64,000 bases of DNA. Source: Gracilaria domingensis. Taxonomy: Eukaryota; Rhodophyta; Florideophyceae; Gracilariales; Gracilariaceae. The translations under genes and the position numbers were made by a program. Each line of letters opens with the position of its first letter. The first letter of the stretch is position 1. The stretch is from positions 1 to 64,000 of the forward strand of contig VCMS01000262.1 of the NCBI GenBank assembly GCA_022539475.1. The letters run 5' to 3'. The notes below the pieces were generated by a model that saw only the letters and a list, made by a program, of their open reading frames with translations, had not been told where the DNA came from and ran no database searches. Shown piece by piece: positions 36,219-64,000 of the stretch.

Positions 36219-36233
36219 GTCTGTCTCTTGCAG

Positions 36234-36512: not shown

Positions 36513-36639
36513 TGCTAGTACAGATGATGCCCATTATGAAATCATACCGTTTTATTCGTATCTATTCTTCTATCGACCGCTTTTGCTAACCACTACTTCG
36601 CTATATTACATGTACCATTTCCCCATGATGGAGCGGGTG

Positions 36640-36803: not shown

Positions 36804-36907
36804 GCACCTGCAACTGGTGAGCTACGTCGGCATCAAAAGTCATTTACCTGTATACGCAAGCAAAAAGTATTCATGAGTTATTAAATGCCTCGTTAGATAC
36901 ATTTGAA

Positions 36908-41200: not shown

Positions 41201-41333
41201 CGCAACAAACATCGACCACATATTGAAATGCATATCTTTACGGTGGGCTACAAACGATGAAAAGAACCACACTCTTCCGTTCCCTCGTCATTCCAAAGCG
41301 GAGACTATCGTAGAGTTAACTCCTTGGTACGGG
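38231..41333 (+). pseudogene. Transposase of copy B, broken
   Basis: Same gene as 18,588-21,863. Starts MTSILTVARPP. Damage: a 2-base loss near 38,864 shifts the frame (AELKNAIF becomes ELKHHFR); TAG at 40,572-40,574 (after TAAE) shared with copy C; truncation at 41,333 where a deletion joins it to the coiled-coil gene, so the last 50 or so residues are missing. Confidence 0.88.
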
Positions 41334-41911
41334 TGTCTCTCGAATTCTTATTGTCTTTCACCCTTGTCCGGACCCATTGTGCGGCATAATACGATTCATA
41401 GCGGCCACAACGAAAGACGTGACGATCTTAATATATTAGGGTTCTCACGACTTCTCTTCATTTTCCCTTGTTGTCCAGATCCACTGTGCAGCGTAACCCG
41501 CGCCCCAGTAGTTCCGGTCTTCGATATCGGCGGGGGACGTGAAGTTTTTGCTGTCATACGAACCTCTTCAGTTTCAGTTGTCATACCCTCCTGTCCTGAC
41601 CCGCTGGGGCGAGTTACCTCCTATTCTTGGAGAGCAGACACAAATGCACGATTTGCATTATCGGCAGTTAACGGCACGACATCGTTCGCTGATCCACGAA
41701 TTCTTGACGCAATCCCGGAACACTCTCGGCTGCGAGATGGGCGAGAGAGTACTGTAGAAGGACGCCCACTGACCCTCTTCTTCGTCGAGGACGACTTCCG
41801 TTTAGGAAGTGCGGTGCTTGTAGCCTGATTCGTATCATCCGATGCTCCTCTCTTCTTCTGTCCACTCTTTTTCCGCTGCGTACTATTTTGCTTTCTCGGC
41901 CTTATACCCAT
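41334..41911 (-). pseudogene. Coiled-coil gene remnant, copy B
   Basis: ATG 41,911 (MGIRPRKQNSTQRKKS), N-terminal repeat region only, with a stop at 41,621-41,623 and frameshift. About 1,980 bp present in copy C (56,684-58,661) are missing; the junction TACGGG/TGTCTCTCG at 41,334 has almost no microhomology. Confidence 0.85.
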
Positions 41912-42148
41912 GTTGTGGAGATAAACGGGGTAATGAAACGAAATAGTTGTGGGTGTGGGGGGAGGTCATGGTTCAGATATTCCGGGAGACTTCGCAGTTC
42001 CTGCTTTTTAGGAATTTGAGGTGCCCAATGGGTCGCAAATGTCGCCGTTACAAATAGATGAAGAGCTCCAGTGTACATGTACAACGCGTATTGCAGGCAG
42101 CTGCAACATTCACAAGCATATTTACTTTCTATTCGGTACTGCACTCAT

Positions 42149-45100: not shown

Positions 45101-45262
45101 TAGCCCTCTATATCCCACGTCCCGTGGCCGACCAGGTCCTCCATCGCTGTTTGCCAAAGCATCGCGAAGAATTAAGAAAAGTCTGACATATGCATGGAAC
45201 GCCGGAGGCGGATCACTCATGTCGCTAGAATGTATCTCCTCTCCATCATCGGTGGAATCCAT
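42149..45262 (-). pseudogene. MTase-SET gene of copy B, broken
   Basis: Starts ATG 45,262 (MDSTDDGEEIHSSDM). Keeps both catalytic motifs, DPPFNN near 43,740 and DLVMDLFAGTFSTGMA near 43,130, and the SET end GEELYFNYGEQYAW. Damage: a 14-base loss near 44,363, a 1-base loss near 43,270, a TAG near 42,962, a 10-base loss near 42,775 (DEKYRGA region), and a TAG inside SET at 42,515 (LFS read as stop-FS). It does not contain the 248-bp extra segment of copy A, so the MTase and SET parts were directly joined. Confidence 0.88.
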
Positions 45263-45292
45263 GGCTTCAGCCCAAAAAACGGAGGCGAGCCT

Positions 45293-45390
45293 TGAAATGG
45301 CGACTTACGCTGGGCACCCCCGCTTTCGGCAGCTCTTCCCAGCGCACTACCAGTCTCGTCCGTGTCCGTGTGCGCTCCCTTCCGAGATCG
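45293..45390 (-). promoter_or_regulatory. Promoter module of the MTase-SET gene, copy B
   Basis: Minus-strand copy of the shared module (CGAAAGCGGGGGTGCCCAGC, CTGGGAAGAGCTGCC), mirrored at 47,275-47,368. The TATA-like ATTTAAA is ATTTCAA here. Confidence 0.55.
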
Positions 45391-45545
45391 GTGTCCGTGC
45401 CACTTTGAGCGGGTGCGATAGGGTCGCGTGTCGGTTACGTCGCGATTCGGAGCTATTGCAAAAGGTCGCATATTGTGCTAATAGTCGCGGATCAAGTGCG
45501 TGTGAAGCGCTTTTTTTCTCTAGTTTGATATATGTGCACGTGTGT

Positions 45546-45972
45546 GCAGCAAAATCACTGCCGGAAGTGTCGGGAGGAGTGTTTTGGGAGGTCTCAGGAG
45601 GGTGCCTGAATGTGGCCAGAACGTGCTCGCGCGTAGGGGGGAAGGGGGGGGGTCGGTCGCGTTAAGGTAGGTACCCTAACACGACCGAACCCCCCCGCCC
45701 GCGGGCATAAAATCACACCTTTTTCACGAAATCGCCCAGAACGTGCCCGCGGGGGGGAGGGGTCCGGTCGTGCTAGAGTACCTACCCTAACACGACCGAC
45801 CCCGCCCCGCCCGCCCGCACGTTGTGGCCACATTTTGAGGCCTTCCCGGGACCTCCCAAAACACACCACCCGGCACTTCCTACACCGACCGCGTCACCCC
45901 AGTGAACCATCCCGTCTTCTCCACCCTCCAGACGCTCCCTAATTCTCACGTGCACCACACCTACCCTAGAGA
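45546..45972. repeat. Central palindrome, first copy, in copy B
   Basis: Arms with GTGTTTTGGGAGG / CCTCCCAAAACAC, cores TTAAGGTAGGTACCCTAA (about 45,661) and TAGAGTACCTACCCTAA (about 45,774). The outer segment 45,836-45,972 is the inverted partner of 46,806-46,920. Confidence 0.8.
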
Positions 45973-46805
45973 AGAGGGTGGGGTTGAGTGTCAATGATGT
46001 GGAGGACTCTATTCATTCTACGCCGTGCTCGACGACGGGGGCTGATATACCGTATGCAAGGCGGATGGAGATGGCGTGCGCAGGCACGGCTGCCGCTCCT
46101 GACCCAGCAATACTTAAGAGCGCCATCGATAGCAGTCTTTTCTAGTCTAGTGGTAAGCTATGAAACAACTCATATCTCTCAGTAAACTAATCTTTTCGGC
46201 AGTTATCGACTGTGCACGACGCAATTCCATCCCGGATCCGTAAGTCCGTTACCCGCATGCAGCCCATTGCAGGGCCGCCGCTGTGCTCGCCCGCCACCGC
46301 GCCCAACAACAGTCTCAATCTGAACCCACGACACCGAGCGCTGCTGACACCAGGGTGTGAAGGACGTTGCGAACGCGCTTCACACCCTTCCGTACGTGCT
46401 CTCCCTCTCGTCGTAACACTTTTGCGCCACAAACACAAAGCGTCACAGTTCGTAGTCTCTATCACAGCCTCGCCTGCTCCCGGAAATTCTGTAGTGGGGC
46501 AACTCCCTCGCGCGCTCGCCGGTCAAGTGCCATGTTGCACAATTGCAGCTACCTGGTGCATATTCTGCTGGTGGCCTTGATCAAGACAGGAATGAGGACT
46601 ACTGTACCAGGCTACTCAGCGAACAGAGTAGTGCCTTGCTCGTTGAGTAACCCTCTCAGTATAAAATTGAGTGGTTTACATCCCTGCAGCATGTAGAACA
46701 GGTGGGAACCACTCAATGATACAGATTCGGTCACTGATTCAGTGACCGATAGAACCTCGGAAAAGATATGGTGATCGCTCAGAGGGTAGGTGTGCTGCAC
46801 ATGGG
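45973..46805. other. Spacer within the central region of copy B
   Basis: No gene supported. 46,030-46,195 matches bases 1-155 of copy A; the rest is unique. It holds a perfect palindrome TCGGTCACTGA-T-TCAGTGACCGA (about 46,728-46,750), an inverted repeat GGGTGTGAAG...CTTCACACCC (about 46,352-46,389) and GAGTGGTT/AACCACTC (about 46,669-46,717). Confidence 0.5.
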
Positions 46806-47090
46806 AATTAGAGAGCGTCTGGAGGGTGGAAAAGACGGGATGGTGCACTGAGGTGATGCGGTGGGTGCAGGACGTGCCGGGGGGGTGTGTTTTGGGAGCT
46901 CCCGGGAAGGCCCCAGAATGTGGCCAGAACGTGCCGGCATGCGCGGGGGTCCGGTCGTGCTAGGGTACCTACCCTAACACGACCAACCCCCCCCCCCTTC
47001 CCCTCCGCCCGCAGGCGCGTTCTGGCCACATTCGAGCGCCCTCTGAAGACCTCCCAAAACACTCCCCCCGCAGTGATTTCGCTACACCCG
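46806..47090. repeat. Central palindrome, second copy, in copy B
   Basis: Contains TAGGGTACCTACCCTAACA (about 46,960), flanked by G-rich and C-rich tracts and by TGTGTTTTGGGAG / CCTCCCAAAACACT; followed by GCAGTGATTTCGCTACACC as in copy C. Confidence 0.8.
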
Positions 47091-47274
47091 GCCGCCGGTA
47101 CGTTGGCGCCGCTGTCCAAGTGTATTGCCGGGAGTAGGCTGTACATGAATGTGAATGAGTGTACTCTTGACTACTATGCTAAGCATTTGAAGACCACGAT
47201 AGAGGGCGCGACCATTGCTCGCGTGAGTCATGGTTGCACGAACTTCACGACTCTAAAGCGTACAATCAGCGTGC

Positions 47275-47368
47275 GAACGGCCACGGACAAGACACGGACG
47301 AGATTGGCAGGGCGCTGTGAGGAGCTGCCGAAAGCGGGGGTGCCCAGCGTGAGTCGCCATTTAAAGGC
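47275..47368 (+). promoter_or_regulatory. Promoter module of the ParB-like gene, copy B
   Basis: Same module as before the MTase gene, in opposite orientation (GAGGAGCTGCCGAAAGCGGG, GTCGCCATTTAAAGGCTC), about 65 bp before the ParB-like start codon. Confidence 0.55.
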
Positions 47369-47431
47369 TCACCTCCATTCTTGTATCGTCCAGAGCGAGC
47401 GTATTGTTGATCTGCACCATAGCTGTTGAAC

Positions 47432-50400
47432 ATGTAGCAAACTCGTGTCACAAGGCGTACGCAAAGCGTGACTCCTCGCACTCGGCGGAGCACTCGATCA
47501 TTGCAAGATCGAATTCAGGATTCTCTGCAGATGGATATTGAGAATGAAGGAAAGGTGATAGCCGGGGAAGCGTTGTTGCAATGAAGTGGAAGCGTTCTAC
47601 GCCGCGAGTTGAACGGCAAGCAATTGGACCCAGGTCTTGTGGTGGTTCATGATATTCTCATCAGTCGAAGCGGTCAGATGTTCTACCCTTACCGTGCGGA
47701 GGGCCTGGATCTTCCACAATACATCCAGGATTTCCGGACAGCCGCTCCTTGAGATGAGAAAATGGTGAAACCGGTGACACCAGCATTCCGGCGTCCAAGC
47801 GACGAATGGTGAGCGCAATGAGTGAGGTTATGACTCCCACAAGCCGCACGGAGCGAATTCGAAGTTCATCAACACCGAGAGGTTGCGCATCAGTAGCACC
47901 TCCGCGAGCCGGTCCGTCGTCTGTTACGAAGCGGTCTATGGCGACTAGATCATCCCCAGCTACGAAGCGGACAGGCCAAACAAAGTCTACCTCCGCTACG
48001 AAGCCGACTGTGTCGAGAACGGCATCTCTTGCGATGAATCAGACCGTGGACAAAAGGGGATCTTTTGCGTCGAAACAGACGATTCAGCACGGGACGGCTG
48101 TGCAAGAAGAGGAAGATGAGATCATAAAAGGTCGTCTTTCAGACGCGAATGCGCAATCAACACAAGGAGCTGGTCCATCTGTACCCCAAACTGCACTACA
48201 AACTGCGGAGCAGCAGGACGATGAAGTTGTGATTCTGTCCGCAAGAATTGCACGTTCAAGTGTTTCTGGCTAGCGTTCTGGAACACAAGCGACCCCTACT
48301 CGCAGGAAGACGTATAAAAGAATTCGTCAGAAGGTCCCAAAGGTGAACCTCAATCACTACCGGATGGTTGTTGTTACTGTTGACATCACTCTTGTGAACA
48401 CTCCGCCCAATTTACTCCGTGGAGTAAGTAAACGCCCCGTCGAAGCCCTTTTGAAGAGTATGGAGGAGCGAAGGATATTGCAGTCGATGGGTTCTCCAAT
48501 GGTGGCCTTACAAGATGCTACTACGGGAGAGAGGGATACTGACAAGGGACGCCTAAAGAAGAAGTGCTTCATTGTGGATGGCTTGCATCGTCTGAAAGCT
48601 ATAAAATACTTGGCTCCGACTGGTGCACCGAAGTGGAAGAGATTAACCACGTTTTGCCGTTGCAATCTGCTGATACGAAGAGATGGGAGGCCCATTGGGA
48701 TGAGGAATTGTTATGTGTTGCTTCGTACCTCAATGAGTCGACGAGTACCATGCGAAGGATGATGTTTGCAGACAAGATACACTCTATAGTTAGTTTGGTC
48801 GCCATTCTAATTGAAGATGTTGAGGGGGTGACGCCGGCAGACGTGAATCCTGCAGAAGTGACAGAAGTGTTGAAGGAGAGCCAACTGATTGGGACTGTGC
48901 AAGAGCGTCAGTACCTGAGATGTGCCAATTTCGCCCCGCAACTCATGTCTCGTGAGGGAATGTTGGCCCATTTCGATGATATATGTGAGAGTGCGAGTGA
49001 CATAGGCCTTACACATCTGTCCCATACTCTGCTATATGTTTTGAATGCCGAGGAGTTTTCCTTCATTCTTGATTGTTTTCAGATAATTCTATTAAAGGGC
49101 AAGTCGACGAAGACAAAGCAATGGAAAAGCTTTGAGGAGGTTCGAGGTTTCTTTTATGATAGAGCAGTGTCTCTGTTCCGCGCGGCTCGAGCAGTGAGGA
49201 ATGAACTGAACGTGAAAGAGTCCATGGAAGTGTTCCTGAAACGCGAAGTCAGTCTTTCTGCTCCATCGAATGAAGATGACGTTGAAGACCCAGACAACAA
49301 CGCAGCTGTGTATCAGTGCCTTTTGGGACAAGTTGTGAACTTCAACACATTGCCGCGTGTTCGGAGCAGAACGAACTCAATTAGAACTGCCACGACTTCC
49401 GTTCAGAATCGATTGCAGACGATGCTCAAGGTAATTCCGCCCCCCGCACCAGTGAAGCAGTCCGTGACGAAGAGAAGGACTCCCGCTGCTGCTGCTGCAA
49501 CATCTGTCAGTGAAGAAGGGGAGCCGCGAAGAAGTGCACGAGAACGGACGCAGGTGAGTTATAGGGAAATTGAGCACGGCCGAAATCGAGATGCCATAGA
49601 AATTCTGGATAGCTCTGAAGAAGAACAGCGGGCTCCGCCGAGGAAGAAACGGAGAAAGAATTTCACACAACATATGAGATCCACTCTGAACAGCATGACA
49701 CTGGATGACCTGATGTCTCAACTGAATGAACATGTGCTGAGAGGAAGGTCGATGAAGGTTCAGTTCGTGGCATTGGAAGAGGGAGGGAATGCCGAGAACG
49801 CAGGCAGTTCTGCATTTGTGGATCACGAAGAGCTTCTTGCTGTCACAGTTCCACGGGTTGTCACCGTCGAGAAAGATGCTGCGCCAGTGGAACAGCAAGA
49901 GACAGGTGGGGGGTCATTTGATGACGAGTTACTTACAGCTTTTCCGGAATCTGAGGAGCACGGACTTGTTCGAGGAGACCCATATGATGGCCCACTGAAC
50001 CCATCATGGTGCGGGTAGGTCAGGCTGACACCGCAGGAATGGCAAGGGAAGAACGTAATTGAGCACAAGGACCGCTGGCTCAGAGTCATTCACTTGCCGA
50101 AGTCACATAGGTCGGAGCTGCTAAGTGTCTCAGATCTCAGAGATGTACACCATCTTGTGTTTTGGCACGATGCAAGGGCTGAACATCGTCTACGGGCGGA
50201 GATATTTGGTATGCAGTATCCTCGTACTCGGCCGACAGGTATGGATGATGAAGAGGTGCTATGGGTTGCTGCGAAGGAGCATGACGAATTTGGGCAAATG
50301 TTCTTCGCCCGAATGCAAGCTGAGCTAAGGCAAAATGGATATTGCGTGCTTGATGGCTTTGCGACGGATAATGGTGTGCATAAATGGGAGGAGTTGGAAG

Positions 50401-50885
50401 AAGTTCGGGAATTCGGAGATGTTTCGGGGAAGTTGGTGGACGTCTTCGAGAATGAGTATGGAGCGATGCCGGATATACGGAAAGGAAAGGAACAGAAGTC
50501 GTTTGTTCAAATCATCAACGATGATGAAGGACGGAAGGACGGGAGCGATAGACCATTTGAGGGGAGAGTGATGTCGACACGTTGGGATACGGTGGAGAAG
50601 CCGGAAGACAATGAAGAGCTCAGGTGGGTTGTAAGAGCGCGTGCTGTACTTGATGTTCGATTGGGTATAATTGCTGCGGCTTTGCGACTGTAGGACAATG
50701 AAAGGGAAGCTGTGAAGACAAAGGGTGGTGGGTTTGGGGATGGGAAGAGCGGTCTGGAGAAGAGGCGTAAGGAGGTCAAGAAGGTGGTGGAGGGGCTGCC
50801 GCAGGGGGGAGTCGGTGCTCCGGTGTTGACTGGGTTTAAGAGTGCGGCGGAAGCAGCGCGGACGGCGAAGAGGATTCTGAGGTGA
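47432..50885 (+). pseudogene. ParB/Srx-like gene of copy B, broken (about 1,150 codons)
   Basis: Homologous start in copy C at 63,628. Order: conserved N-terminal segment (DPGLVVVHDILISRSGQ), a low-complexity S/T/K region with 10-12-residue repeats, then a ParB/sulfiredoxin-fold-like segment at 48,350-48,615 (LLRGVSKRPVEALLKSMEER, then FIVDGLHRLKAIKYL with the DGxHR motif), a long alpha-helical region, a basic RRSARERTQ patch, and a C-terminal part containing LRQNGYCVLDGFA. Damage: TAG at codon 2, further stops near 47,583, 47,755 and 48,271, a 1-base loss near 47,778, a frameshift near 48,610, TAG at 50,016 and at 50,691; the final stop is TGA 50,883-50,885. Bacterial ParB-fold proteins bind or cleave DNA; the role here is unknown. 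Confidence 0.7.
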
Positions 50886-51844
50886 CAGGATGAGAGGAGG
50901 ATGGGAGGGATGTGAAGCCGTTTTCGGGCGAGGGGGTATACGAGAATGGGGAGAGTTGCCAATTTGACTTTCACAAAAGGACGTTTGCGGAGACGGAGAG
51001 GGACGATGCGAACGCGTGATGGGCGAGAAATAGGTAAAGAGTGGGGGCGGTGTGGACTTGGAAGAAATGATGAGATGATTGAGGTGGGATGAGTTGCGAT
51101 TGACATCGCAACATTGGAGAAAATGGACGCGCAAACTAGCACGAGCGCAGATTTGAGAGAGGGTCGCGGTAAAGAGTGGATGGGGCGATGGGGCGAAGTG
51201 GAACCTCTACAAAAACTAGGAGACCCAAGAATTAAACTGCGCGAGATGTAATTTTATATTCCAAAATTTCTTACTTTTTTGAGTACCAGCCTCTGCCACC
51301 CCCTCGCGTGCCCCAAATAGCCCAAAAACTAATTTAGTTTCCAAAGCGCACAGACTATATTCCACTTTGCAGAACACAGACGTGGGAATGCAGCACGTTC
51401 CGCACGTTGGGGCTGGGTACCGTCTGCTATCAAACCAACTCGCAAGAACAAGGAAAGTGTAGATCCGTAGTCATAGGTGATAGCCAAAGTAGGTCCCACG
51501 CGAAGTGCCAGCGACGGATCCATCAACGGCATGTTTGCTCGGATACCAGGCTCATAGTTTGGGGCCGAAGTGGACTTGTGGAAATTCTAAAGATGATCGT
51601 CCTGTTGCTCTCCACGAAATGCACCATTCTTCCAGACGGTGTCAACCAGATCAAGAATGGTATGGGTGCCAAGTGCTTGTACGCTGAAAGCGGGCCATTT
51701 TGAGTTAGCACTCGTCAAAGCATCGAAGTTAATCAGCATAACGCTTTATTCGTTTCTGTGAAGCAGCAAACTTCCGTGTCAGAGAACGACCGGCCGGAAG
51801 GCAGAAGCAACTCTGTCGCCGCTGCTTCTGGGTTTATGCGGATC
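50886..51844. other. Junction between copies B and C
   Basis: No gene supported. To about 51,200 it continues the purine-rich style of the ParB-like gene; from 51,230 it is unlike anything else in the window. The right terminus of copy B should lie here. AAACTAGCA at 51,133-51,141 is the inverse of TGCTAGTTT near the left terminus, a weak terminal-repeat candidate. Confidence 0.4.
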
Positions 51845-51860
51845 CGTCTGTCTCTTGAAG

Positions 51861-52145
51861 ATGCTAGTTTTTGGCGAGGGTCGTCCAGAAATTGGCAAGG
51901 GTCGTCCAGTAAATTTTTTGAAAAAATATCGAGATCAATTATTTCAAAACTTGCAGATAATTGCTTCGGTCGTCCAGAATCGCTGTGCAGTAAATACTGG
52001 TGGGTTTTCCACTCATGCTAGTTCTTTAGTCGAGGGCTACCTGAACGGTATTTCGCGAAGTCTAGGTTCAGTTTCCATTAAGGTGCACATTACACGATAC
52101 CTTCTGCGGAATGATACCCTGCAATGCATGGAATACTGGTGCTAG
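51861..52145 (+). CDS. Conserved terminal small ORF, copy C (94 residues)
   Basis: Starts MLVFGEGRPEIGKGRPVNFL after CTGTCTCTTGAAG, where A and B have CTTGCAG. Open, like the other two copies. Function unknown. Confidence 0.45.
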   Translation: MLVFGEGRPEIGKGRPVNFLKKYRDQLFQNLQIIASVVQNRCAVNTGGFSTHASSLVEGYLNGISRSLGSVSIKVHITRYLLRNDTLQCMEYWC

Positions 52146-52261
52146 TACAGATGATGCCCATTATGAAATCATACCGTTTTATTCGTATCTATTCTTCTAT
52201 CGACCGCTTTTGCTAACCACTACTTCGCTATATTACATGTACTATTTCCCCATGATGGAGC

Positions 52262-52430
52262 GGGTGTAGACGCAATCTGCGGCAGATGCCGCAGACTGCA
52301 CCTCCACCATAGTGCTGTATCGGTAGAACAAGTACGCACTCCGAGAGGATGAGGCGCTTCGCGCCTCATCCTCTCCGTTCCTCATGTAGGGAACCATGCC
52401 CAGATGCATGGTTCCCTACTTGAGGAACCT
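52262..52430. repeat. Three-hairpin cluster, copy C
   Basis: CTGCGGCAGATGCCGCAG; the perfect 15-bp stem GAGAGGATGAGGCGC with loop TTC (52,343-52,375); and the long hairpin 52,377-52,429 (TAGGGAACCATGC / GCATGGTTCCCTA). Confidence 0.9.
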
Positions 52431-52469
52431 GCACCTGCAACTCGTGAGCTACGTCCGCATCAAAAGTCA

Positions 52470-52986
52470 TTTACCTGTATACGCAAGCAGAAAGTATCCA
52501 AAAGTTAGTCAATGCTCCGTTGGATACATTTGAAATGCGATGGAACGTACCATTGATAAAACAAAACAGAAACGTTGAGCTAGAAAAGTCGAGGGACCTA
52601 GTAACTCGCAAAGGGAAGAAGAAAAAGGAAAGGGATCGGTTAGATTACCAGCCCACCATCATCGTAAAGCGCGAAAGATGTCGAAGCGAGAACTCACAAG
52701 CAAGGACACCAAGAATGCCCATGCAGCAAACATACCGCAAGATGCGATAAACGAAAGAGCAGCCTATGTCCCAACCAAGCACCAGAATCGCCTATCCCGA
52801 ACAGTCAGACATCGATCTTGAGAGACGAAATGAAATTGGTCGTTTACCTGTATACGCAAGCAGAAAGTATCCATAAGTTAGTCAATGCTCCGTTGAATAC
52901 ATTTGAAATGCGATGGAACGTCCCATTGATAAACCAAAACAGAAACGTTGCGCTAGAAAAGTCGAGGGACCTAGTAACTCGCAAAA
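52470..52986. repeat. Direct duplication of about 140 bp in copy C
   Basis: 52,470-52,607 and 52,843-52,986 both run from TTTACCTGTATACGCAAGCA through AATGCGATGGAACGT to CCTAGTAACTCGCAAA. Copies A and B have this segment once. It disrupts the small basic ORF. Confidence 0.8.
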
Positions 52987-53177
52987 GTAACCCAAAGCCT
53001 TTTTCCTGCCGTTTACATGTCGCAGAGCGCGAAGAGACGTGGTGAGGATTGGTTAGTTTAGAACAAAGATACGTAGAAGGGTATGGAAGCACGTACGAAA
53101 AGACTGCACGGAAAGACTGCACGGAATACATCCGTGAGATACGAATACTGTCCGCTTTCTGGAGGCGTCCGAAGAGG

Positions 53178-53268
53178 GCGGAGAAAGAGAATGTGGTACG
53201 CTTCATGTCCGCTGAATGGAATCCATTAAGCAGAGATGAAGCGTACTTCATTCTCTTTCTCCGCACGC
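53178..53268. repeat. Inverted repeat upstream of the transposase, copy C
   Basis: Arms GCGGAGAAAGAGAATG and CATTCTCTTTCTCCGC with inner GTACGCTTCAT / ATGAAGCGTAC; the loop is about 25 bp. Confidence 0.75.
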
Positions 53269-53577
53269 TACTTCGTAGCGAGTGCGAGGGCGGAAAAAAG
53301 TACGACGGAGCGGAGTAGAACGCGAGGATGGCACGGATCACGACCGTAACGGAAGGTCGGACGTCGGAGGCGCGGCGGCGGCGGCGGAGGGAAGAGATTT
53401 ATTTTTCTGTGCGAGATTGGAGAGGTTTACAGCGTACAACGTTGCGAAACCACAGGTTTATAACAAGTGGTAGATAATACAAGAAGTACATCCCTGTGTT
53501 GAGGTCGACGTGTACCTACGTTCCTTTTTGAACGAAAGCACGTGATTTAAACTCAAAATATATTCTCCGTTCTCAGC

Positions 53578-56500
53578 ATGACGTCGATCTTGACTGTCGC
53601 TCGACCTCCTTCTCCCTTCTTACAACCTTCCCTTGCAGTCTTTGTCGTCGTTTATCGTTCATTTCTTCTTCCCATGGTCTACTACTGTACACATAAGAAG
53701 CGTGGGTGCCCCTTCGTTACTCGCCGAGGAGTCTTATCTCTTCAACAGCATGTCAACCATTGCCCGTTTCGTCTGAAAGCAGCGCTGGAAGACGACAATA
53801 GCCGGCCCATTCGGAGAAGCAAGCGTCTCAAGCTTTCCGCGCCCGCGCCCGCATCTTCCGAAACGGTCACTGCCCCTTGTCTCCATCCAGAGCCTCCGGT
53901 GTCCGAGGACACCGTTGACTCCACTCCGTGCGCCCCTCCCATTCCGGACACTTCGCATTTTGTTTCTCCTTCCCCGGGTCCCGCGTCATTAGAGCGAGAA
54001 CACGGAAGCAGTTCCCGCCCAGTGCCTTCTGAGGAGACCCTCGGTGATTTGCATATGGATTATCTCACGGTTTGTCTGGCTTCAGTAGCTTCCAACCTTG
54101 GTCATCGTGAGGCTGACTAGCTAATTGGACTACTTCGGGACCCGCGATTCTCGCAAAAGCGATTCAACGAGACCATAACAAGTTCCAAGCGCTGTACAGA
54201 ACTGAAGAACGCCATTTTCGAACGATACGCCTCAAAGGACGGTTTCAATCGAAGAACTGTCTTGCCAGAAGGATGTAAGTTCAGCGCCACCCTCTACACG
54301 AGAGACCCCGTTCAGACACTTGTGAAACAGCTCCAGTTGGCTAACAACGAAAACACATTCTTCCACCCTATACCTCAGACCCACTCCACGAAAATATCTC
54401 ACCCCGTGTCCGGCTCTCTCGCAAGAGACGCCACCTCAAAACTTAAGAAATTGGTCATGGGCTCTTTGGATAGTAGAATAGTGTGGTACTCCCAAGAAAT
54501 AAGTTGCAGTGAATTTTTCGTAGGTCTTCTGCAGGTATACACCGATAAGTCTTCAATAACTCTAAAGCAAACATCGGTTACCGCCTATCCTTTTCACCTC
54601 ATATTTCTCAACTTCTCCGACGAGCTTCGCCGTAAGTGTATCCGTGATGACCTCACAGTAGTGGCATACTTCCGTACCACACTGATCGAGGTTTCCGCAT
54701 CTGAAGCAGACCCAATGCCATTCGTTTCTAGCAAGTCTCTACGCGAGTCCAGGATGCAAATCCTTCAAGAATCTCTTCGTCAAGTCCTGGAGCCCATTCT
54801 AAATCTCACGCAGAAAGGTTTTGAGTTCATCGGCGAAGACAAACTAAGTCGAGTGTGCCATCCTCTGCTTGCAAGTTATTGTGTGGATATTCCTGAGGCT
54901 AAGGACATTCTGTCTATTCTTCATGGGACCAAAACAGAAAGCCCGTGTCATAGATGCAAAGCCCCTCGCTCATCTTTATGCAGTCATATTCCCACCTCAT
55001 TCAACGGACGTTCTCAAAAGCACACGAAAAGCATCCGAAAGACATACACAGCTATCTTGCAACATGCACAAAAAGACGAGGCGGAAAGACGTTCACGTCG
55101 TGCGAGGGAGAGGAGATCTCAAGCGGATACTCTGATGCGTTCAAATTCCATATCTCTCATTCCTTCGTTCCTCGAAACTTTCGTAAGCCTTGTGATGATC
55201 CCGGGATTGTCTCCATACAGTCTGTTCTCATTCGAACCATTACACAACTTGCATCTCGGCATCTCAAAGGTGATAAAAACGGCCACAATCGAGAGACTGC
55301 AGTCAGACACCCTGTGCACCACAATAGAAACATCTGCATCGCGTTCATTTCGAACGATACGCACCCAACTACTCAACCATGCAAACGCAATTCTAGCTGC
55401 CATAGAACGCGATTCTCTTGCCAAAGGTATACATATCGATTTCTCCACGCAGGGGAAAGGCAAATCTTTGAATGGTATTTTCACGAAAGACGATCTCCGT
55501 GGAATTCTGGAGGCCAAAAACTACAAAGCACTTGACATGGTCTACCCCTTCATAGAAGTATTCTTCGACATATGCTGTGAAGAAGAGGACGTTTACGCAA
55601 TCAAAACCACTTTCTCTCTGTACTCGGACTTGCTTTCGACTTTATTCAGATACAATCGTGACCCGTATTGGACTGAAAGCTCTCTCCTGTGTCTTAGTTC
55701 GGAGATTGAAGCCTTCAAGCGCTCCGCAACAATGACTCTGGCGGATTTTTATCCCTCCAGACTGGGAACTCTGAAGTTTCATCTTCTCGATCATCTCGTG
55801 GACGATATTCGCCGTCTGGAAAGTATCAAGTACTACGAAGCAGGCATATACGAACATGCACACCTGCCATTTAGGAGACACTACAAAAAGACGTCCAGAA
55901 GAAGAGCAACGGCTGCGGAGTAGACTATTAGCTCCATTGAGCACGGACATGTTAGAAAGCAATGGAATGGCAATACTCCTGACCAGCGTAATCCAGGTTT
56001 ACCAGGAACTTCCACACAGCTTCCTCGATTTGCAATGAGAGGGCGTTCTTTCAATTTACGAGCTCTTCAACATTGTGTTTCAAGTATGTCCAGTTCAAAA
56101 ACATGGACTGCTGTTAGAGAGATGTTCTCAAGTAGGGACACAAGGTCGATTCTTGACCAAATTGGTGAACAGGCCCTTCCTCCTTTCCTCAGTCTCGTGA
56201 AAGAAACACTGGATGAGCACTCTATTACATACTTCCCAGAAAAGACAAGGATAACTCTGGTGAATTCGGCCCTCGTGAAAGACGGTTTCGTTCCGACTCT
56301 TGAACACTTCGATTCGTCTTCTAAGGCACTTAAGCTGGGACGACCCAAATACCCCATCATCCAACGTGTCTTCGCTTCTCCAGCATTTGGTCCCAGTAGA
56401 AAGCCAACATTTTCCACTGTATTGGTAAGCGGAGAAGATTCAGAGACTTGGGTTGCCCAGGTAGTCGCTCTGATTCGAATATCTCTTCTTGATTCTGCAC

Positions 56501-56853
56501 TTACCGCACCAGAGGTGGCATTCGTCCGGTATTTCGAGGTTTTACCCCCCGCAACAAACATCGACCACATATTGAAATGCATATCTTTACGGTGGGCTAC
56601 AAACGATGAAAAGAACCACACTCTTCCGTTCCCTCGTCATTCCAAAGCGGAGACTATCGTAGAGTTAACTCCTTGGTACGGGATGGTTCCGGCTTCTGCA
56701 CTACAGGGAACTGTCCATGTTGTTCGATCAAACTACCCTGCTCCACCTTTTTGTCCTCCACTTCAATGGTTTCAACACCGATTCTACATCAATCGATTCT
56801 ATCATGATTCAGATGAAGGACCAACTGAGCACGTTGATCTTGTACAGCTTTAA
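53578..56853 (+). pseudogene. Transposase of copy C (two in-frame stops)
   Basis: Full length, collinear with the intact copy A gene. TAG at 54,118-54,120 (after HREAD; GAG in copy A) and TAG at 55,921-55,923 (after TAAE), the latter shared with copy B. No frameshift seen. The stop at 56,851-56,853 overlaps the stop of the coiled-coil gene. Confidence 0.88.
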
Positions 56854-59246
56854 ACATTAAGGGCTCCATCTTCTACATGTTCACCTTGTGGTGCCTTTTC
56901 TTGTGATCCTGTGTTACTTCCGAAATCGTTCATGTCCATTTCCTTGAACTCCATATTCCCTTTCTCGCATTCACCAACGAAGCAATCGCTAATAGACCCC
57001 AATCTTCGGCTCACACTGTCAATAAAAAATTGTTCTTTCACAGTGAGGTAAAGTCTTCCGTTCGACGGCATTCGATATCCAAATGTAGCCTCTCTCATGT
57101 CATTACCAAGAACCTTAGTCCAATCTTCCGTTGTCGTTCCAAAATTATGAAACTCGCTGGAATTGGTCCTCAAGACATGTTGCCTAACATCCCCCAGAAC
57201 ATTCTTTAAACACAGAGGTAGCAGTTCGGCAAACTTCTTTGTAAACAGTTTCTGTCTCTGGCCACCCCTTGACACATCCGTACTTAGAAGGCTCACAACC
57301 GTCAACACCCAAGCGTCCAAACGTGCGAGCAACAGTATTGTGCCATCTAAAAAGATGCCCGTATCCTTGTCTTCCACATCATACCCAATAAACTCCTTCA
57401 GTACTTGTACCCCGACACGGTTTCGGAAGAACAAGTCTTGATCTTCCGTCGGCATATCCTCGACATTGTCCGCATTGGAGTACTTTAGACGAACAAATGG
57501 GGCTTTTCTCCACCATGAAGTGTTCGGTACACCATTTTCGTCAAGACGCAGTATGTTCTCCTGCGCTTCCTTCAACTGCATTGTGAGTTCGTCAGCATTC
57601 TCTTCTACCAGCTTTGTTCTTCTCCAAATCAGATCGTACCCCAGGAGCAGAAATAGTTTATCCCTCGTATTTCTCTTACGAACGCCCACGACGTCACTCA
57701 TGGTCTTCTGCATTCTCTGCCTAAGGCACATATCTGCACAAAGTTCCAGTATACACGTGTCGGTAAGAGATGCTTTTCTAATACCTTCCCAGCTCAACTC
57801 CTTCAACTCGCTTTCAACCATTTTCTTCAGCAAAGCATCTGGCCCCCCCTCTACCGACGGTGTCAACATGCCAAAACTGCCCAAGAGCTCCACGGGGTTT
57901 TTAGGAACCATGTATGAACCACCTTCCTCCGGCTCAATAAGCCCTACCCCACTCTCAGTTGCGTCTTCCACCTTCTCGGCACGGTTACCCCAATTTCGGG
58001 TGAGCGACTCACCTTCGAGCCATAGCTCACTTGTTTCTCTCCTTTCCCACGTCAGCATGTTGTGATACACTGCTCGAGCAACCCCTCGAAACTCGTCGCA
58101 CACCTCAATTTTATGCTTCTTTCGACCTGTCTGCCCAGGTTCACCAGCACGTGTACTCCTATCTCCCTCCTGTTTCAGTGCCCCTCTTAGCCCTTCAATG
58201 ACTAGATCCTTCTCTTCAAGCCTCTTTTTCAAAGCCGTACTCTGCTCTTGGGCGACCTTCACTAGAATTCCCCGAACCATCAAGTCCTCTTGTAGCGTCT
58301 TAAACTTTTCTTTCAAGCAATTCAGTTCATTTAAAAGATCAGGTCTGTTCATAGAGCTTGAATTCACACCAGTTTGGATATCTTCCGTTATTTTCCTAGC
58401 TTCTTTGGCGACAGGCCCCGGTAATGCCGCAGGATTCGGTGTTATTTCGTTATCGGAACTATCCTCATGTGCCATAGCCTTAGACACGAGAGGCTGCAGG
58501 CGTTCTGTGTCCACCCTTGGCACGGCTCCGAGCTTTAACTCCCGTGTCTGTCCTCCTCCATGGCATGGTATATCAGATGAATTGGGCCTCGTACGAGCTG
58601 CAACGGCCCCCGTTCTGGAAAGAGGAGAAGGTCGAGGAGTAACTCGTCTATCAGTTGTCTCTCGAATTCTTATTGTCTTTCTCCCTTGTCCGGACCCATT
58701 GCGAGGCATGATACGATTCATAGCGGCCCCAGTTCTAGAAGACAGGGATGGACGTGACGATCTTAATATACTAGGGCTCTCACGACTTCTCGTCATTGTC
58801 CCTTGTTGTCCAGATCCACTGGGCGGCGTAACCCGCGCCCCAGTAGCTCCGGTCTTCGATATCGGCCGGGGACATGAAGGTTTTAGTGTCATACGAACCT
58901 CTTCGGTTCCAGTTGTCATGCCCTCCTGTCCTGACCCGCTGGGCCGAGTTACCTCATCTTCTTGAGGAGCAGAGACAGATGCACGATTTGCATTATCGGC
59001 AGTTGACGGCACGACATCGTTCGCTGATCCACGAATTCTTGACGCAATCCCGGAAGACGCTCCGCTGCGAGATGGGCTAGAGAGTTCTGTAGAAGGACTC
59101 CCACTGACTCTCTCCTTCGTCGAGGACGACTTCCGTTTAGGAAGTGCGGTGCTTGTAGCCTGATTCGTATCATCCGATGCTCTTCTCTTCTTCTGTCCAC
59201 TCTTGTTCCACTGCGTACTATTTCGCTTTCTCGGCCTTATACCCAT
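56850..59246 (-). CDS. Repeat and coiled-coil protein, intact copy (798 residues)
   Basis: ATG 59,246 (MGIRPRKRNSTQ) chosen because the equivalent ATG exists in copy B; the frame extends 23 codons further upstream. A basic S/T-rich N-terminus; three 40-residue tandem repeats (pattern PSGSGQ.G..TR...., PRPS..SRTGA) at about residues 80-215; a coiled coil at about 300-360 (LNELNCLKEKFKTLQEDL, ALKKRLEEKDLVIEGL); and a C-terminal half of about 400 residues, conserved in copy A, with no recognised domain. It lies downstream of MTase-SET on the same strand and convergent to the transposase. It could be a DNA-binding accessory (TnpA-like) protein of the element; that is inference. Confidence 0.75.
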   Translation of the reverse strand: MGIRPRKRNSTQWNKSGQKKRRASDDTNQATSTALPKRKSSSTKERVSGSPSTELSSPSRSGASSGIASRIRGSANDVVPSTADNANRASVSAPQEDEVTRPSGSGQEGMTTGTEEVRMTLKPSCPRPISKTGATGARVTPPSGSGQQGTMTRSRESPSILRSSRPSLSSRTGAAMNRIMPRNGSGQGRKTIRIRETTDRRVTPRPSPLSRTGAVAARTRPNSSDIPCHGGGQTRELKLGAVPRVDTERLQPLVSKAMAHEDSSDNEITPNPAALPGPVAKEARKITEDIQTGVNSSSMNRPDLLNELNCLKEKFKTLQEDLMVRGILVKVAQEQSTALKKRLEEKDLVIEGLRGALKQEGDRSTRAGEPGQTGRKKHKIEVCDEFRGVARAVYHNMLTWERRETSELWLEGESLTRNWGNRAEKVEDATESGVGLIEPEEGGSYMVPKNPVELLGSFGMLTPSVEGGPDALLKKMVESELKELSWEGIRKASLTDTCILELCADMCLRQRMQKTMSDVVGVRKRNTRDKLFLLLGYDLIWRRTKLVEENADELTMQLKEAQENILRLDENGVPNTSWWRKAPFVRLKYSNADNVEDMPTEDQDLFFRNRVGVQVLKEFIGYDVEDKDTGIFLDGTILLLARLDAWVLTVVSLLSTDVSRGGQRQKLFTKKFAELLPLCLKNVLGDVRQHVLRTNSSEFHNFGTTTEDWTKVLGNDMREATFGYRMPSNGRLYLTVKEQFFIDSVSRRLGSISDCFVGECEKGNMEFKEMDMNDFGSNTGSQEKAPQGEHVEDGALNV

Positions 59247-59493
59247 GTTGTGGAGATAAACAGGGTAATGAAACGAAATTTTTGGGGAGGGGGGGAGGGG
59301 GTGGGGGATGTGCATGGTTCAGATATTCCGGGAGACTCCGCAGTTCCTGCTTTTTAGGAATTTGAGGTGCCCAATGGGTCGCAAATATCGCCGTTACAGA
59401 TGAAGAGCTCCAGTGTACATGTACAACAACGCGTATTGCAGGCAGCTGCAACACTCACAAGCATATTTACTTTCTATTCGGTACTGAACTCAT

Positions 59494-62400
59494 CTATTGC
59501 TCCAATGTCAGAGCCCAGTCCCAGGCGTACTGCTCTCCGTAGTTGAAATACAACTCTTCGCCCCTCTCAATATCTCTTACTGCTCTACAACGAAGCAGAG
59601 CATAGTTAGAAAGGTCTGACTTAAACTGTATCACGGACTTCGCTTCCACCACCTGCACATTTGCACTTCGAGTCCTGTTTGACCGGGGCTCCGATAAATC
59701 GGGATCCCCGGCATGATACCCGGCGTCGTTAATGTAGCCCCCGATACAAAAAGGCGCCGGGACAATGTAGACTTCGCTCTCCTTTCTATCCTGAGCCTGT
59801 CCTGGTCTGTTCCTCAGGTGCAGAAACTCCGTACCAGTCACAGTGACCATCATAGAAAACAACTTGTACCGCACTGGAGCTGCTCCGAGACAGCCACTTC
59901 CATACGTTAAGTGTCTTTCCTTCCGGTTCGTCAGATCCGTGTAAACCAAAGTTCCATAAAAATGACAGATAGTTTCCCCAGCCAATATCTCATGTTCCGT
60001 GAACACCCCCATACCAGCACGGGGATGTCGAATCTTAGAAGATGCTATATGTAAGCGATAGCGATTGGCTTCAACAGTCAACAGCATATGCATATCCATT
60101 AGGTTCAGAGCTCCTCGGTACTTCTCATCCTAAAGATCTAGAGTATGCTGTCCACATTTGTCGACAAAGTCCCAGTCCTTCCAGTATCTTCCTAGGAACT
60201 GAGTAATATGTCCAGGCATCACTTGGTACTGGGGGTAACCAAATGGAGCCTCCCATTCAAGCCGAGCTCGGTCCCGATGTGGAACCCGTTCATAAGTTGT
60301 TGAAGCCGCATCCACCACCTCCTGCTCAACCAGGATGTCATTCTTCCCCCCGCGAATAACTTCGGCCATAAGAGTCGTTAGATGGTGCTTCGCATGGCTG
60401 AAACATGGCCTATTCTTCTCGCACCCCAAGAACTTCCTTTGCTTTGTCAGCGATATGCACGCCATACCCGTAGAAAAAGTTCCCGCGAACATGTCCATGA
60501 CAAGATCACCCGGTCTTGTGAAGCGACATATCAACTCGTTCATCAACTCCCTCGACTTCTGCTCCGGTCTTATGTACTGCCCACCTGGTACTGAACTACC
60601 TGGCTCATGTACCTTCCATGTCAACCACTCCCCCGCTCTCGGTTTTGGCACCCGGTCAATTACATTCCTGTTAGCCGGGAAAGTAGAAGGAATGAAATTG
60701 TTCTCCTCAAATGGAGTAAGACTGGCTTCCTCCGATGGTCGCAATCCACGCTTCACCGCATGAACGGCGTACTCCGTGACGGGCTGTATCCCAAACTTCC
60801 GTGGATTCTCCCCAACATTACTTCGATCCCGGATGAACACCAGTGGATTCGCATCCACTTTAAACGAAGGCATGAGTTCTGGTTTACCTTCGCTTCCAGC
60901 TTCATCTTTCGTACTCGCCGTTTCCGAAAGTATCCTGTGCCAAACATGAAACTGTGCCATGGCACAGAATATAATGAAGTGCCCACCTGACCGAAGCGCG
61001 GAACTTATTAAGTCAGCCGTACGGATCATGTCTTTCTCACTGAAGACATCGTGACCACTATTCCGTTTGTTCCTCTTCCTTCGAGTGTTAAAGGGAGGGT
61101 CTGTTAGGACAAGCTGTGCCTCACCCCATAAAATCTCACTCTGATTCACAAACGTTTCGTGTGTGTGCCTCAGGTCCTTCATTTCACAGTTGTACGCTAC
61201 AAAGTGTGACTTTCTCATCCCCTTCCACACCTTGTCCAAATTCATTCGAAGGAGACTGGATATCCCCTTCATGGGCGGCTCAATACCAGTCTTTTGGATG
61301 TTGTAACCGGCAACCCGAGATTCATGCTCCGCAAGATTCACCGGCTTCTCGAACTCGTCGCTATCGGAGCTCACGAGGTTCATATACTCTCGACGAGGTG
61401 GAGGTGGGGCAGACTTGGTCGAAGAAGGTTCGGCATTACCGGAAGTTTTAGGGGTTTTCGTCAGTTCAGTATCAGGTTTCGCGTGAATGCCGACATGGAA
61501 CCCTGCCGCATGACGCATATCCTGTATCGGTTTCCATAGCAACTCCGAAAACTTCTGAAATCGAGCAGGCAACTCACCGGAGTCAGAACCAGATACGGTA
61601 TCTATCCGTATCTCCGAAAACTCTATCCAGTTCCTCATCTGATCAGCCCGTAAGCTATAGAGGCTATCGTGGGTGTATACGGTTTCGAGGTCTGTCAAAA
61701 ATTCCTTAGCCAGTATTCGGAGGTTTGTATTGCATTCATCACTCAAGGTCTCCACCGATCCACTAGTACTGCTCTGTGGCACATCCTGTGTGTTGAATCG
61801 AGTACTCTGGCTCGGCGGGGCATAACCAGACTCACGTGTCTCTAGCGCCGTATACTTCAACGTCTGCATATTCATGTAAATGTATGGTTTCACCATATGC
61901 TGAACGTTCGTGTATCCAAGATGAGCCGCAAAACAACTCCATGCCCATACGACCTCACTGATAGCGAATCCCAGTCGATCACAGTTGTCTTTGGAGAACG
62001 ACGTAAAAGTGGGTATGTACACAGATGGTGCATGGTTTACTTTTCGTTTCTTTTTCGGTTGTTTCTTCTTCATCATTTGGATGTTGTCGTTCTCTCCCAT
62101 TATGTGGCCGAGGTATGATAAATATATAACGACCTCAAATGGGTTCACAGCTGTTGGTGGGATGAACACTGTCGTCTTCAGAACCTGCTTTCTCCTGGTC
62201 ATGAAATAACCAACCAGGCATCACACCGGTACGTATATACCCATATCCATAGAGAGAAGGAAAAAATCGCGCAGTCTCTGGTCCTCATCCCCGTCCTTCT
62301 TGTCAAGAAGCTTCGTTACAAGATATCGTTGTTCCACAGGTTTGTTATTCACAACACTCTTTCGCAGCTGTTGCAGTGTCAAGTTCTGCAGGTTCTTGGA

Positions 62401-62668
62401 GTTAGTGGCCTCCTCAAACATCTTCCTTGCCTCCGGAATATCCTTATAGTTCTCGGCGCAGAACTCTATTAACCCTCTAAACCATACGTCCCGTGGCCGA
62501 TCAGGGCCTCCATCGCTGTTTGCCAAAGTATCGCGAAGAACCAAGAAAAGTCTGACATATGCATGGAACGCCGGAGGCGGAGCACTCATGTCGATAGGAT
62601 GTATCCCCTCTCAATAATTTTCTACGACTATAACCAGTATCATAACCTCCAACATCGGTGGAATCCAT
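59494..62668 (-). pseudogene. DNA methyltransferase-SET fusion gene, copy C (nearly intact)
   Basis: The best copy of the fusion. Methyltransferase: motif IV TDPPFNT at 61,090-61,104, a target-recognition-like stretch, then motif I DLVMDMFAGTFSTGMA near 60,490; the order is beta class (N6-adenine or N4-cytosine). The SET domain follows without a gap: GMGVFTEHEILAGETICHFY, GGYINDAGYHAG, SANVQVVEAKS, ERGEELYFNYGEQYAW. Damage is small: a 37-bp insertion after codon 6 shifts the native start (an ATG at 62,589 could serve), CGA to TGA at 62,221-62,223, and TGG to TAG at 60,130-60,132 between the two domains. Upstream of motif IV are a basic NLS-like tract (KKKQPKKKRKV) and a region without known motif. 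Together the parts suggest DNA and histone lysine methylation by one protein. Confidence 0.88.
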
Positions 62669-62695
62669 CGCTTCAGCGCAAACAACGGAGGCGAG

Positions 62696-62790
62696 CCTTT
62701 AAATGGCGACTTACGCTGGGCACCCCGGCTTTCGGCACCTCCTCCCAGCGCACTGCCAGTCTCGTCCGTGTCCGTGTCCGCTCGGAGCGA
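62696..62790 (-). promoter_or_regulatory. Promoter module of the MTase-SET gene, copy C
   Basis: Minus-strand copy of the shared module with GTCGCCATTTAAA and GGAGGAGGTGCCGAAAGC, mirrored at 63,465-63,555. Confidence 0.6.
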
Positions 62791-62940
62791 TGCGTCGCGT
62801 GTCGAAGCGATAGCGTCGCGTGTCGGCCACGTCGCGATTCGGAGCTATTGCAACGGTCCCGTATTGTGCTAAAAGTCGCGGATCAAGTGGGTGTGAAGCG
62901 CTAGTTTTCTCTAGTTTGATATATGTGCACGGCGTGTGCA

Positions 62941-63268
62941 GCGAAATCACTGCCGGAAGTGCCCGGAGGAGTGTTTTGGGAGGTTTCCGGAAGGCGCCGG
63001 AATGTGGCCAGAACGTGCCCGCGGGCGGGGGGTTCGGTCGTGTTAGGGTAGCTACCCTAAAACGACTGGACCCCCCCGCCCGCGGGCACGTTTTGGACGA
63101 ATTTTTGAAAAATGTGCGATTTTATGCCCGCGGGCGGGTGGGTCCGGTCGTGTTAGGTTAGCTACCCTAACACGACGGACCCCCCCCCCCGCCCGCGGGC
63201 ACGTTCTGGCCACATTCCGGCGCCTTCCCGGGACCTCCCAAAACACGCCGGCCCGCAGTGATTTCGCT
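62941..63268. repeat. Central palindrome, copy C
   Basis: Outer arms GCGAAATCACTGC / GCAGTGATTTCGC; inner arms GTGTTTTGGGAGG / CCTCCCAAAACAC and TGGCCAGAACGTGCCCGCGG / inverse; cores TTAGGGTAGCTACCCTAA (about 63,045) and TTAGGTTAGCTACCCTAA (about 63,153). The compact form lacks the spacer of copies A and B. Confidence 0.88.
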
Positions 63269-63464
63269 ACACCCGGCCGCCGGTACGTTGGCGCCGCTGT
63301 CCACGTGTATTTGCGGGAGTAGGCTGTACATGGAAGTGAATGAGTGTACTCTTGACTACTATGCAAAGCATTTGAAGAGCATGATTAGAGAACGCGACCA
63401 TTGCTCGCGTGAGTCATCATTGCGCGAACTCCACGACTCTAAAGCGTACAATCAGTGTGCGAGC

Positions 63465-63555
63465 GGCCACGGACAGGACACGGACAAGACTGGCAGTGCG
63501 CTGGGAGGAGGTGCCGAAAGCGGGGGTGCCCAGCGTAAGTCGCCATGTAAAGGCT
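63465..63555 (+). promoter_or_regulatory. Promoter module of the ParB-like gene, copy C
   Basis: GGCAGTGCGCTGGGAGGAG, GTGCCGAAAGCGGGGGTGCC and GTCGCCATGTAAAGGCTC, about 75 bp before ATG 63,628. Confidence 0.6.
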
Positions 63556-63627
63556 CGCATCCGTTCTTGTATCGTCCAGAGCGAGCGTATTGTTGATATA
63601 CACCTTTCACTGCAACAGCTGTTCAAC

Positions 63628-64000
63628 ATGAAGCCAACTCGTGTTCGAAAGCGTACGCAAAGCGTGACTCCTCGCACTCGGCGGAGCACTCGATTATTGC
63701 AAGGTGGAATGCCGGTTTCTCTGCAGATGGATATTGAGGATGAAGGAAAGGTGATAGTCGGGGAAGCGTTGTTGCATGGAATTGGAAGTGTTCTACGCCG
63801 CGAGTTGCACGGGAAGCAATTGGACCCAGGTCTTGTGGTGGTTCATAATATTCTCATCAGTCGAAGCGGTCAGACGTTCTACCCTTACCGGGCGGAGGGC
63901 CTGGATCTTTCACAGTATATCCAGGATCTTCGGACGGCCGCTCCTTGGGATGAGAAAATGATGGAACCGGTGGCAGCCAGCATTCCGACGTCCAAGCGAG
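63628..64000 (+). CDS. ParB-like gene, N-terminal part, copy C (runs off the window)
   Basis: ATG 63,628 (MKPTRVRKRTQSVTPRTRRS), open for 124 residues to the window edge. The homologue in copy B starts with ATG-TAG at 47,432. A basic N-terminus is followed by VVVHNILISRSGQTFYPYR. The ParB-fold part lies beyond the window. It is divergent from the MTase-SET gene across the central palindrome. This copy could be intact. Confidence 0.7.
   Translation, partial: MKPTRVRKRTQSVTPRTRRSTRLLQGGMPVSLQMDIEDEGKVIVGEALLHGIGSVLRRELHGKQLDPGLVVVHNILISRSGQTFYPYRAEGLDLSQYIQDLRTAAPWDEKMMEPVAASIPTSKR

Follow-up and report, generated by a model that had tools for sequence, protein, structure and literature searches.

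Three Window Copies of a Methyltransferase-SET Gene

The window analyzed here, a stretch of 64,000 nucleotides (C262:1-64000 within a searched genome of 77.9 Mb in 680 contigs), contains three copies of a mobile element, referred to as A, B, and C, each with a gene in which a DNA methyltransferase domain is followed by a SET domain (Table 1). An earlier note had read in this gene the motif order DPPF, FAGTFSTG, and then a SET domain, which is borne out in the sequence, and the profile search that it proposed returned both PF01555 and PF00856 in copy C above their curated Pfam cut-offs. Aligning the intact protein of contig C164 with copy C (tblastn) placed residues 18-1055 at 59497-62610 in a single frame, shared by the methyltransferase and SET parts and broken only by two in-frame stops, a TGA at 62221-62223 that severs the N terminus and a TAG at 60130-60132 between the methyltransferase and SET parts. 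Residues 1-17 lie at 62648-62698 in a different frame from the remainder. Copy B aligns as four segments in three frames, and copy A is interrupted by a retroelement, gypsy-like as typed by eye, whose LTRs (1330-1901 and 12531-13102) are 99.5% identical, as well as by a second insertion. The open frame is broken in all three copies. The earlier description of the two domains as joined without a gap in copies B and C is therefore correct in that both lack the insertion of copy A, but not in the sense of an open reading frame, which neither copy has. The retroelement within the fusion gene of copy A (1330-13102) itself contains minus-strand frames of 1552 and 755 aa.

Table 1. Features of the window, with positions counted from its first nucleotide
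Feature	Position	Strand	Evidence or remark
Element copy A	1..23522	-	left terminus at ~23522, left end CGTCTGTCTCTTG reversed; runs past window start
Palindromes around TACCCTAACACGACC repeats, copy A	325..404	.	pattern matches
Fusion gene, copy A	746..15939	+	interrupted by retroelement and by second insertion at ~15170-15420
Plavaka-type transposase, copy A	18588..21890	-	1100-aa open frame; PF18759, 63 bits
Element copy B, 15.2 kb	36218..51383	+	left terminus CGTCTGTCTCTTG, right terminus ...ACAGACG
Fusion gene, copy B	42152..45292	-	frameshifted; tblastn
Palindromes around TACCCTAACACGACC repeats, copy B	45655..46984	.	pattern matches
Element copy C	51845..64000	+	from left terminus, left end CGTCTGTCTCTTG; runs beyond window
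Plavaka-type transposase, copy C	54121..56853	+	two frames; 54121-55923 matches PF18759, 63.4 bits, cut-off 26.3
822-aa ORF adjoining fusion gene, copy C	56850..59318	-	no Pfam match
Fusion gene, copy C, whole, decayed	59494..62698	-	tblastn with intact C164 protein
SET domain (PF00856), copy C fusion	59536..60015	-	35.9 bits in ORF 59494-60126, cut-off 22.4
N6_N4_Mtase domain (PF01555), copy C fusion	60403..61116	-	58.3 bits for ORF 60133-62220, cut-off 26.7
Palindromes around TACCCTAACACGACC repeats, copy C	63036..63177	.	partly decayed, in spacer between fusion and ParB-like genes; pattern matches
ParB-like divergent ORF, start	63385..64000	+	extends beyond window; counterpart L009:2-2014, phrog_3264, E 0.00096 (weak)

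Predicted Plavaka-Type Carrier Element

Judging from its sequence, the carrier belongs to the DNA transposons, and its transposase is of the Plavaka type. The PF18759 profile was matched at 123 or more places in the genome (at least, as the best 123 of 672 candidates were scored), and the gene set of the element comprises this transposase, the 822-aa ORF, the fusion gene, and a divergent ORF with a weak ParB-like match. The terminal inverted repeats read CGTCTGT at all seven left ends and ACAGACG at five of six right ends, with TCAGACG at the sixth; these repeats are short, and the ends that were read do not always come from one element. The right end of copy B at 51383 is GCAGAACACAGACG, and this copy, the sole element read confidently at both ends, is flanked by TG outside the CG on both sides; the CG at every element end could itself be a target-site duplication. 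On C164, the left and right ends lie 18.8 kb apart and the element may be nested, and the right end of the C113 element was not found within the 4 kb fetched.

The 18.8-kb stretch of C164 also holds an ORF with a match to a HAD-type hydrolase (~38125-39066, L025; PF08282, 23.3 bits, cut-off 20.9), possibly host sequence or cargo. Other frames on this contig (~36552-37876, L025), which adjoin the ParB-like ORF, were considered as a 2-oxoglutarate oxygenase from an HxD...H pattern seen by eye; this candidate was dropped, as Pfam, PHROG, and PDB gave no match.

Intact Copies and Diverged Families in the Genome

Eight copies elsewhere in the genome (C171, C164, C47, C419, C465, C237, C257, and C597), picked because the genome scan gave them as 1055-aa frames, were fetched, and all eight run without a stop. 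The C171 protein, the one of the eight that was scanned, carries both domains, with PF01555 spanning residues 516-753 and SET spanning residues 883-1042, and its first methionine is residue 11 of the frame. When the best 150 of 328 PF01555 candidates and the best 150 of 311 PF00856 candidates were scored, at least 76 same-strand pairs were found with SET 365-445 bp downstream of the methyltransferase, and in 31 of these 76 listed pairs both domains lie in open frames of equal length, which we used as a proxy for their presence in one frame. For 74 of the 150 listed SET matches there was no scored methyltransferase upstream; some SET matches, the best-scoring ones included, look like ordinary host genes.

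Three further, diverged families of the fusion are present in the same genome, represented by C12 and C157, by C6, and by C382, with 33%, 32%, 41%, and 26% identity to the C171 protein, respectively. Both domains share one frame in all four genes, with SET scores of 23.1-30.4 bits, above the cut-off. From stop to stop, the frames measure 1118 aa in C12, 1120 aa in C157, and 1170 aa in C382, the last being a contig with three methyltransferase places among the listed matches, while the C6 fusion measures 634 aa and has its N-terminal part in a separate frame. C12 additionally has a Plavaka transposase and a further ORF in the order and orientation seen in the window. BLASTP detected no similarity between the 822-aa ORF and the neighboring ORF (a 402-aa stretch) of C281, an element of family 2.

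Relatives among Database Proteins, Prokaryotes, and Viruses

Searching about 5.8 billion predicted proteins with the C171 protein yielded P0001 (1015 aa, 40% identity) and P0002 (1186 aa), and a profile of seven sequences (A2) recovered P0001 again together with P0003-P0007; P0002 as the query retrieved itself only (best 8000 candidates scored). All seven database proteins have the methyltransferase followed by SET. Among 12 scanned fusion proteins, i.e., these seven and five from the present genome (C6 lacking the N-terminal part), PF01555 exceeded its cut-off of 26.7 in every one and SET its cut-off of 22.4 in 10, the exceptions being P0002 (18.1 bits) and P0003 (20.5 bits). The N terminus of P0002 includes a ParB-like stretch (phrog_1033, E 0.027), and no homology between P0002 and the ParB-like ORF of the element was detectable by BLASTP.

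Profile scans gave methyltransferase relatives at 11 loci in viral contigs, which were scanned with methyltransferase patterns only, and at 26 in prokaryote genomes. No match at these 37 loci extends beyond residue 335 of the 606-residue query, and the ORFs concerned, measured for 19 of the 37, are 206-448 aa long. We therefore rejected the idea that the fusion as a whole came from a prokaryote or a virus, the matched stretches being methyltransferase alone. The methyltransferase matches phrog_67 with an E value of 1.3e-23 and appears to be of phage/bacterial type, whereas the fusion to SET looks eukaryotic, because the viral and prokaryotic relatives are methyltransferase-only.

Motifs and Predicted Targets of the Two Domains

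In 11 aligned fusion sequences, the catalytic motif of the methyltransferase is DPPY/F in 10 and EPPY in C382; the PP of this motif and an RPEQK stretch are invariant, and a GT(F/S) motif follows. We take GT(F/S) to be the AdoMet motif and (D/S)PP(Y/F/W) to be the catalytic motif of beta-class amino-methyltransferases. Against PDB chains, the methyltransferase part of the 11-sequence profile ranked the adenine enzymes DpnA, CcrM, and MboIIA at the top, with the N4C enzyme PvuII far lower (E 0.08), and CcrM-like adenine enzymes were also among the NCBIfam matches, at scores far under their cut-offs. Bacterial N6A enzymes are described as having DPPY and most N4C enzymes SPPY (PMC8885841, in part). 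Since both the motif, DPPY/F, and the solved structures closest to this domain point to adenine enzymes, we favor N6-adenine over N4-cytosine as the probable target. The EPPY of family 4 suggests that the C382 methyltransferase is perhaps altered or dead. This family (C382, L035), while having EPPY in its methyltransferase, shows a more canonical INH in its SET domain, and C382 is perhaps a methyltransferase-altered, SET-active branch.

In the SET domain, the GxGVF motif, two asparagines, and a C-terminal tyrosine are invariant across the same 11 sequences, corresponding to G846, G848, N939, N964, and Y1004 of P0001; we assume an AdoMet-binding role for asparagine and a catalytic one for the C-terminal tyrosine. 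The corresponding part of the profile matched EZH2, KMT5A/SETD8, and KMT2C among PDB chains. Compared by eye with other SET domains, 10 of the 11 sequences have ND at a position where most histone SET domains carry NH, and post-SET cysteines are absent, again as judged by eye. These two features suggest that the substrate may be non-histone, although a histone is a plausible substrate of this putative lysine methyltransferase. An AlphaFold2 model of P0001, made from a nine-row alignment, had a mean pLDDT of 66 and a pTM of 0.40.

Selection and Probable Joint Inheritance

Comparison of C12 with C157 (Nei-Gojobori) gave pN 0.158 and pS 0.791 for the methyltransferase, 0.156 and 0.654 for SET, and 0.244 and 0.73 for the N-terminal part; as pS is near saturation, the exact ratio is uncertain and the direction is clear. 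The pooled pN/pS of the eight family-1 copies, taken from non-independent pairs of copies that had been selected for open frames, was 0.295 for the methyltransferase with linker, 0.319 for SET, 0.562 for the N-terminal part, and 0.536 for the part between. These values indicate purifying selection on the methyltransferase and SET domains. Within the eight copies, codons with amino-acid-changing differences outnumber those with silent differences only, the counts being 38 and 32 for the methyltransferase part and 11 and 9 for SET, a pattern that mildly constrained young copies would be expected to show.

Trees of the methyltransferase and SET domains from 12 proteins have six of nine splits in common, which makes it likely that an old fusion has been inherited jointly; P0003 takes conflicting positions in the two trees (support 95 for the methyltransferase, 89 for SET), and domains may also have been exchanged. 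Open frames, four families together with seven database proteins, and the signs of purifying selection uphold the claim of the earlier note that a mobile element carries a beta-class DNA amino-methyltransferase joined to a SET domain.

Palindromes Preceding the Fusion Gene

The spacer between the fusion and ParB-like genes contains palindromes around TACCCTAACACGACC repeats, with the family-1 core TTAGGGTA-GC-TACCCTAA. At up to three mismatches, the window has 15 matches to TACCCTAACACGACC (expected 1.1), and 14 of them fall within the spacers of the three copies; the decayed palindromes of copy C are below the threshold of the palindrome search. Palindromes of this type number two in C171 and five in C164. 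In C12, a palindrome without a loop, its arms 38 bp long, lies just before the fusion gene, and the corresponding stretch of C6 contains two palindromes, one of them with 171-bp arms. Large palindromes thus precede the gene, at the same position, in three of the four families (1, 2 as represented by C12, and 3), with sequences that are unrelated. C281 has a weak palindrome before the gene, and none over the threshold was found in the 914 bp upstream of the C382 gene or the 1001 bp upstream of that of C157. We regard the palindromes as candidate control or binding sites. Outside the window, palindrome regions lie at L034:4741-5385 and L032:4807-4902. At L009, a 93-nt inverted repeat (2065-2157 and 2879-2971), 98% complementary, flanks the spacer, so that the divergent gene pair appears to begin in sequences that mirror each other.

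Discussion

Methylation of DNA is normally linked to that of histones by distinct proteins, some reading and others writing the marks. SETMAR, like the protein described here, has a SET domain and a transposon protein on one chain; its SET domain is joined to an inactive transposase and is not known to be accompanied by a DNA methyltransferase. VANC, encoded by Arabidopsis VANDAL elements, is not known to be an enzyme of the methyltransferase or SET families. Plant VANDAL transposons are described as encoding sequence-specific anti-silencing proteins (PMC5735166, PMC10398659, both in part), and transposon-encoded, sequence-specific anti-silencing of the VANC kind is the role that we propose below. 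The HarbingerS and MuDR families of Phytophthora are likewise DNA transposons with a SET histone-methyltransferase gene (Kojima and Jurka, Repbase Reports 2014, cited in PMC12730594); a DNA methyltransferase joined to it in one chain is not mentioned in the accessible part of PMC12730594, and the HarbingerS transposase is Harbinger-type, whereas only Plavaka was matched in the transposase ORF here. From the same partial source, Plavaka-type and other fungal transposons with TET/JBP genes also carry an enzyme acting on a DNA mark, but that enzyme is an eraser and the hosts are fungi, whereas here it would be a writer; the fungal termini are TGT..ACA or CATCA..TGATG, in contrast to CGTCTGT..ACAGACG (PMC12730594). 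SymbioLINE-Dnmt, SymbioDIRS-Dnmt3, and the Dam-like enzymes of DIRS elements are transposon-encoded DNA methyltransferases, the adenine ones being in DIRS, yet these are retrotransposons, and the term "SET domain" is absent from the portion of the text available (PMC5890265). The bdelloid enzyme N4CMT likewise joins a bacterial N6_N4_MTase to a eukaryotic chromatin domain, but this is a chromodomain, i.e., a reader, accompanied by SPPY and 4mC, in contrast to the SET domain, a writer, and DPPF/Y of the present fusion; N4CMT acts at transposons and is not described, in the sections at hand, as a transposon gene (PMC8885841). Given SPPY there, and DPPY/F together with adenine-enzyme structures here, we consider the rotifer enzyme an analogue. 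Among the matches listed, we recognized no single-chain DNA methyltransferase-SET protein in the literature searched, the reach of which stopped short of one likely review of eukaryotic adenine methylation. Within this reach, transposons are known to carry a SET gene, a DNA methyltransferase, or a TET enzyme, each alone, and the combination of a DNA methyltransferase with SET in one chain is new.

We propose, with a probability of about 0.5, that the Plavaka-type transposon encodes a dual-writer protein that serves self-directed anti-silencing. In this protein of ~1000-1200 aa, an N-terminal domain would be followed by an N6-adenine DNA methyltransferase of phage/bacterial type and, at the C terminus, by a SET domain that methylates lysine. 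The protein would be recruited, perhaps with the assistance of the ParB-like protein, to the element's own control region, namely the palindrome-bearing spacer between the fusion and ParB-like genes. There it would deposit 6mA and a lysine-methyl mark, which together would maintain transcription of the element's genes. We infer that the target base is adenine, that SET acts on a histone, that the protein is directed to this region, and that the result is activation instead of repression. In other eukaryotes 6mA accompanies permissive chromatin (PMC12695648, in part), and among the three roles put forward in the earlier note, namely silencing competitors, marking the element's own DNA, and controlling host defense, the marking of its own DNA fits best. 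That a single chain, by covalent coupling of its two activities, writes both 6mA and a methyl mark on nucleosomal histones at its own palindromic control region is a tentative proposition, in which we place less than even confidence.

The same two activities could have the opposite outcome, with the fusion acting as a repressor that methylates DNA and histones on element copies and thereby limits its own copy number or silences competitors. Rotifers offer a precedent, as their bacterial-type 4mC is linked with silent chromatin and the H3K9me3 mark (PMC8885841, in part), and the high copy number (best 150 of 328 methyltransferase candidates scored) would suit such a role; we nevertheless find it unlikely, because self-silencing would presumably gain an active mobile element little and 6mA elsewhere is reported on expressed genes (PMC12695648, in part). 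The two domains might also have separate tasks, the methyltransferase protecting or hypermodifying transposon DNA, or providing the transposase with marks on donor or replicated DNA, and SET methylating a non-histone partner, e.g., the transposase. Although the phage-type match of the methyltransferase, the missing post-SET cysteines, and a ParB-like neighbor reminiscent of phage or plasmid gene sets are all consistent with this arrangement, a nuclease or restriction partner is absent among the subset of element ORFs scanned with Pfam, and we judge it improbable.

Two further alternatives concern the protein itself. We presume that PF01555 covers both 6mA and 4mC enzymes, and no assayed relative of the same architecture was found, so the fusion might be thought to produce 4mC; however, with DPPY/F in place of SPPY, and adenine enzymes both topping the PDB chains and occurring, far below cut-offs, in the NCBIfam matches, this is quite improbable. 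Finally, the broken frame of every window copy could be taken to mean that the fusion is an annotation artefact in which two adjacent genes are read as one. We reject this explanation as contradicted by the sequence, i.e., by the domain pairs with equal frame length, by the eight stop-free frames and the scanned C171 protein with both domains, by the identical fusion in seven database proteins, and by selection on both domains.

If the proposed deposition of 6mA and a histone methyl mark by one chain is true, the protein would be the first known enzyme whose single polypeptide methylates both DNA and histones. Two catalytic domains kept fused and selected in diverged transposon families constitute a natural test of whether the marks can be co-written. 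The fusion also illustrates the extent to which mobile elements carry chromatin enzymes, and it adds a candidate bacterial-type adenine methyltransferase in a probable red alga.

Elsewhere in the assembly, on contig C680, lie psaA/psaB, a plastid-like gene identified by eye as tufA, and eight phycobilisome genes matched over nearly the whole profile. These genes speak for a red alga as the likely host, with a glaucophyte less likely, and against a fungus, which the Plavaka-type transposase had at first suggested. The best PDB match of its PsaB is 7y5e, which we take to be a Porphyridium structure.
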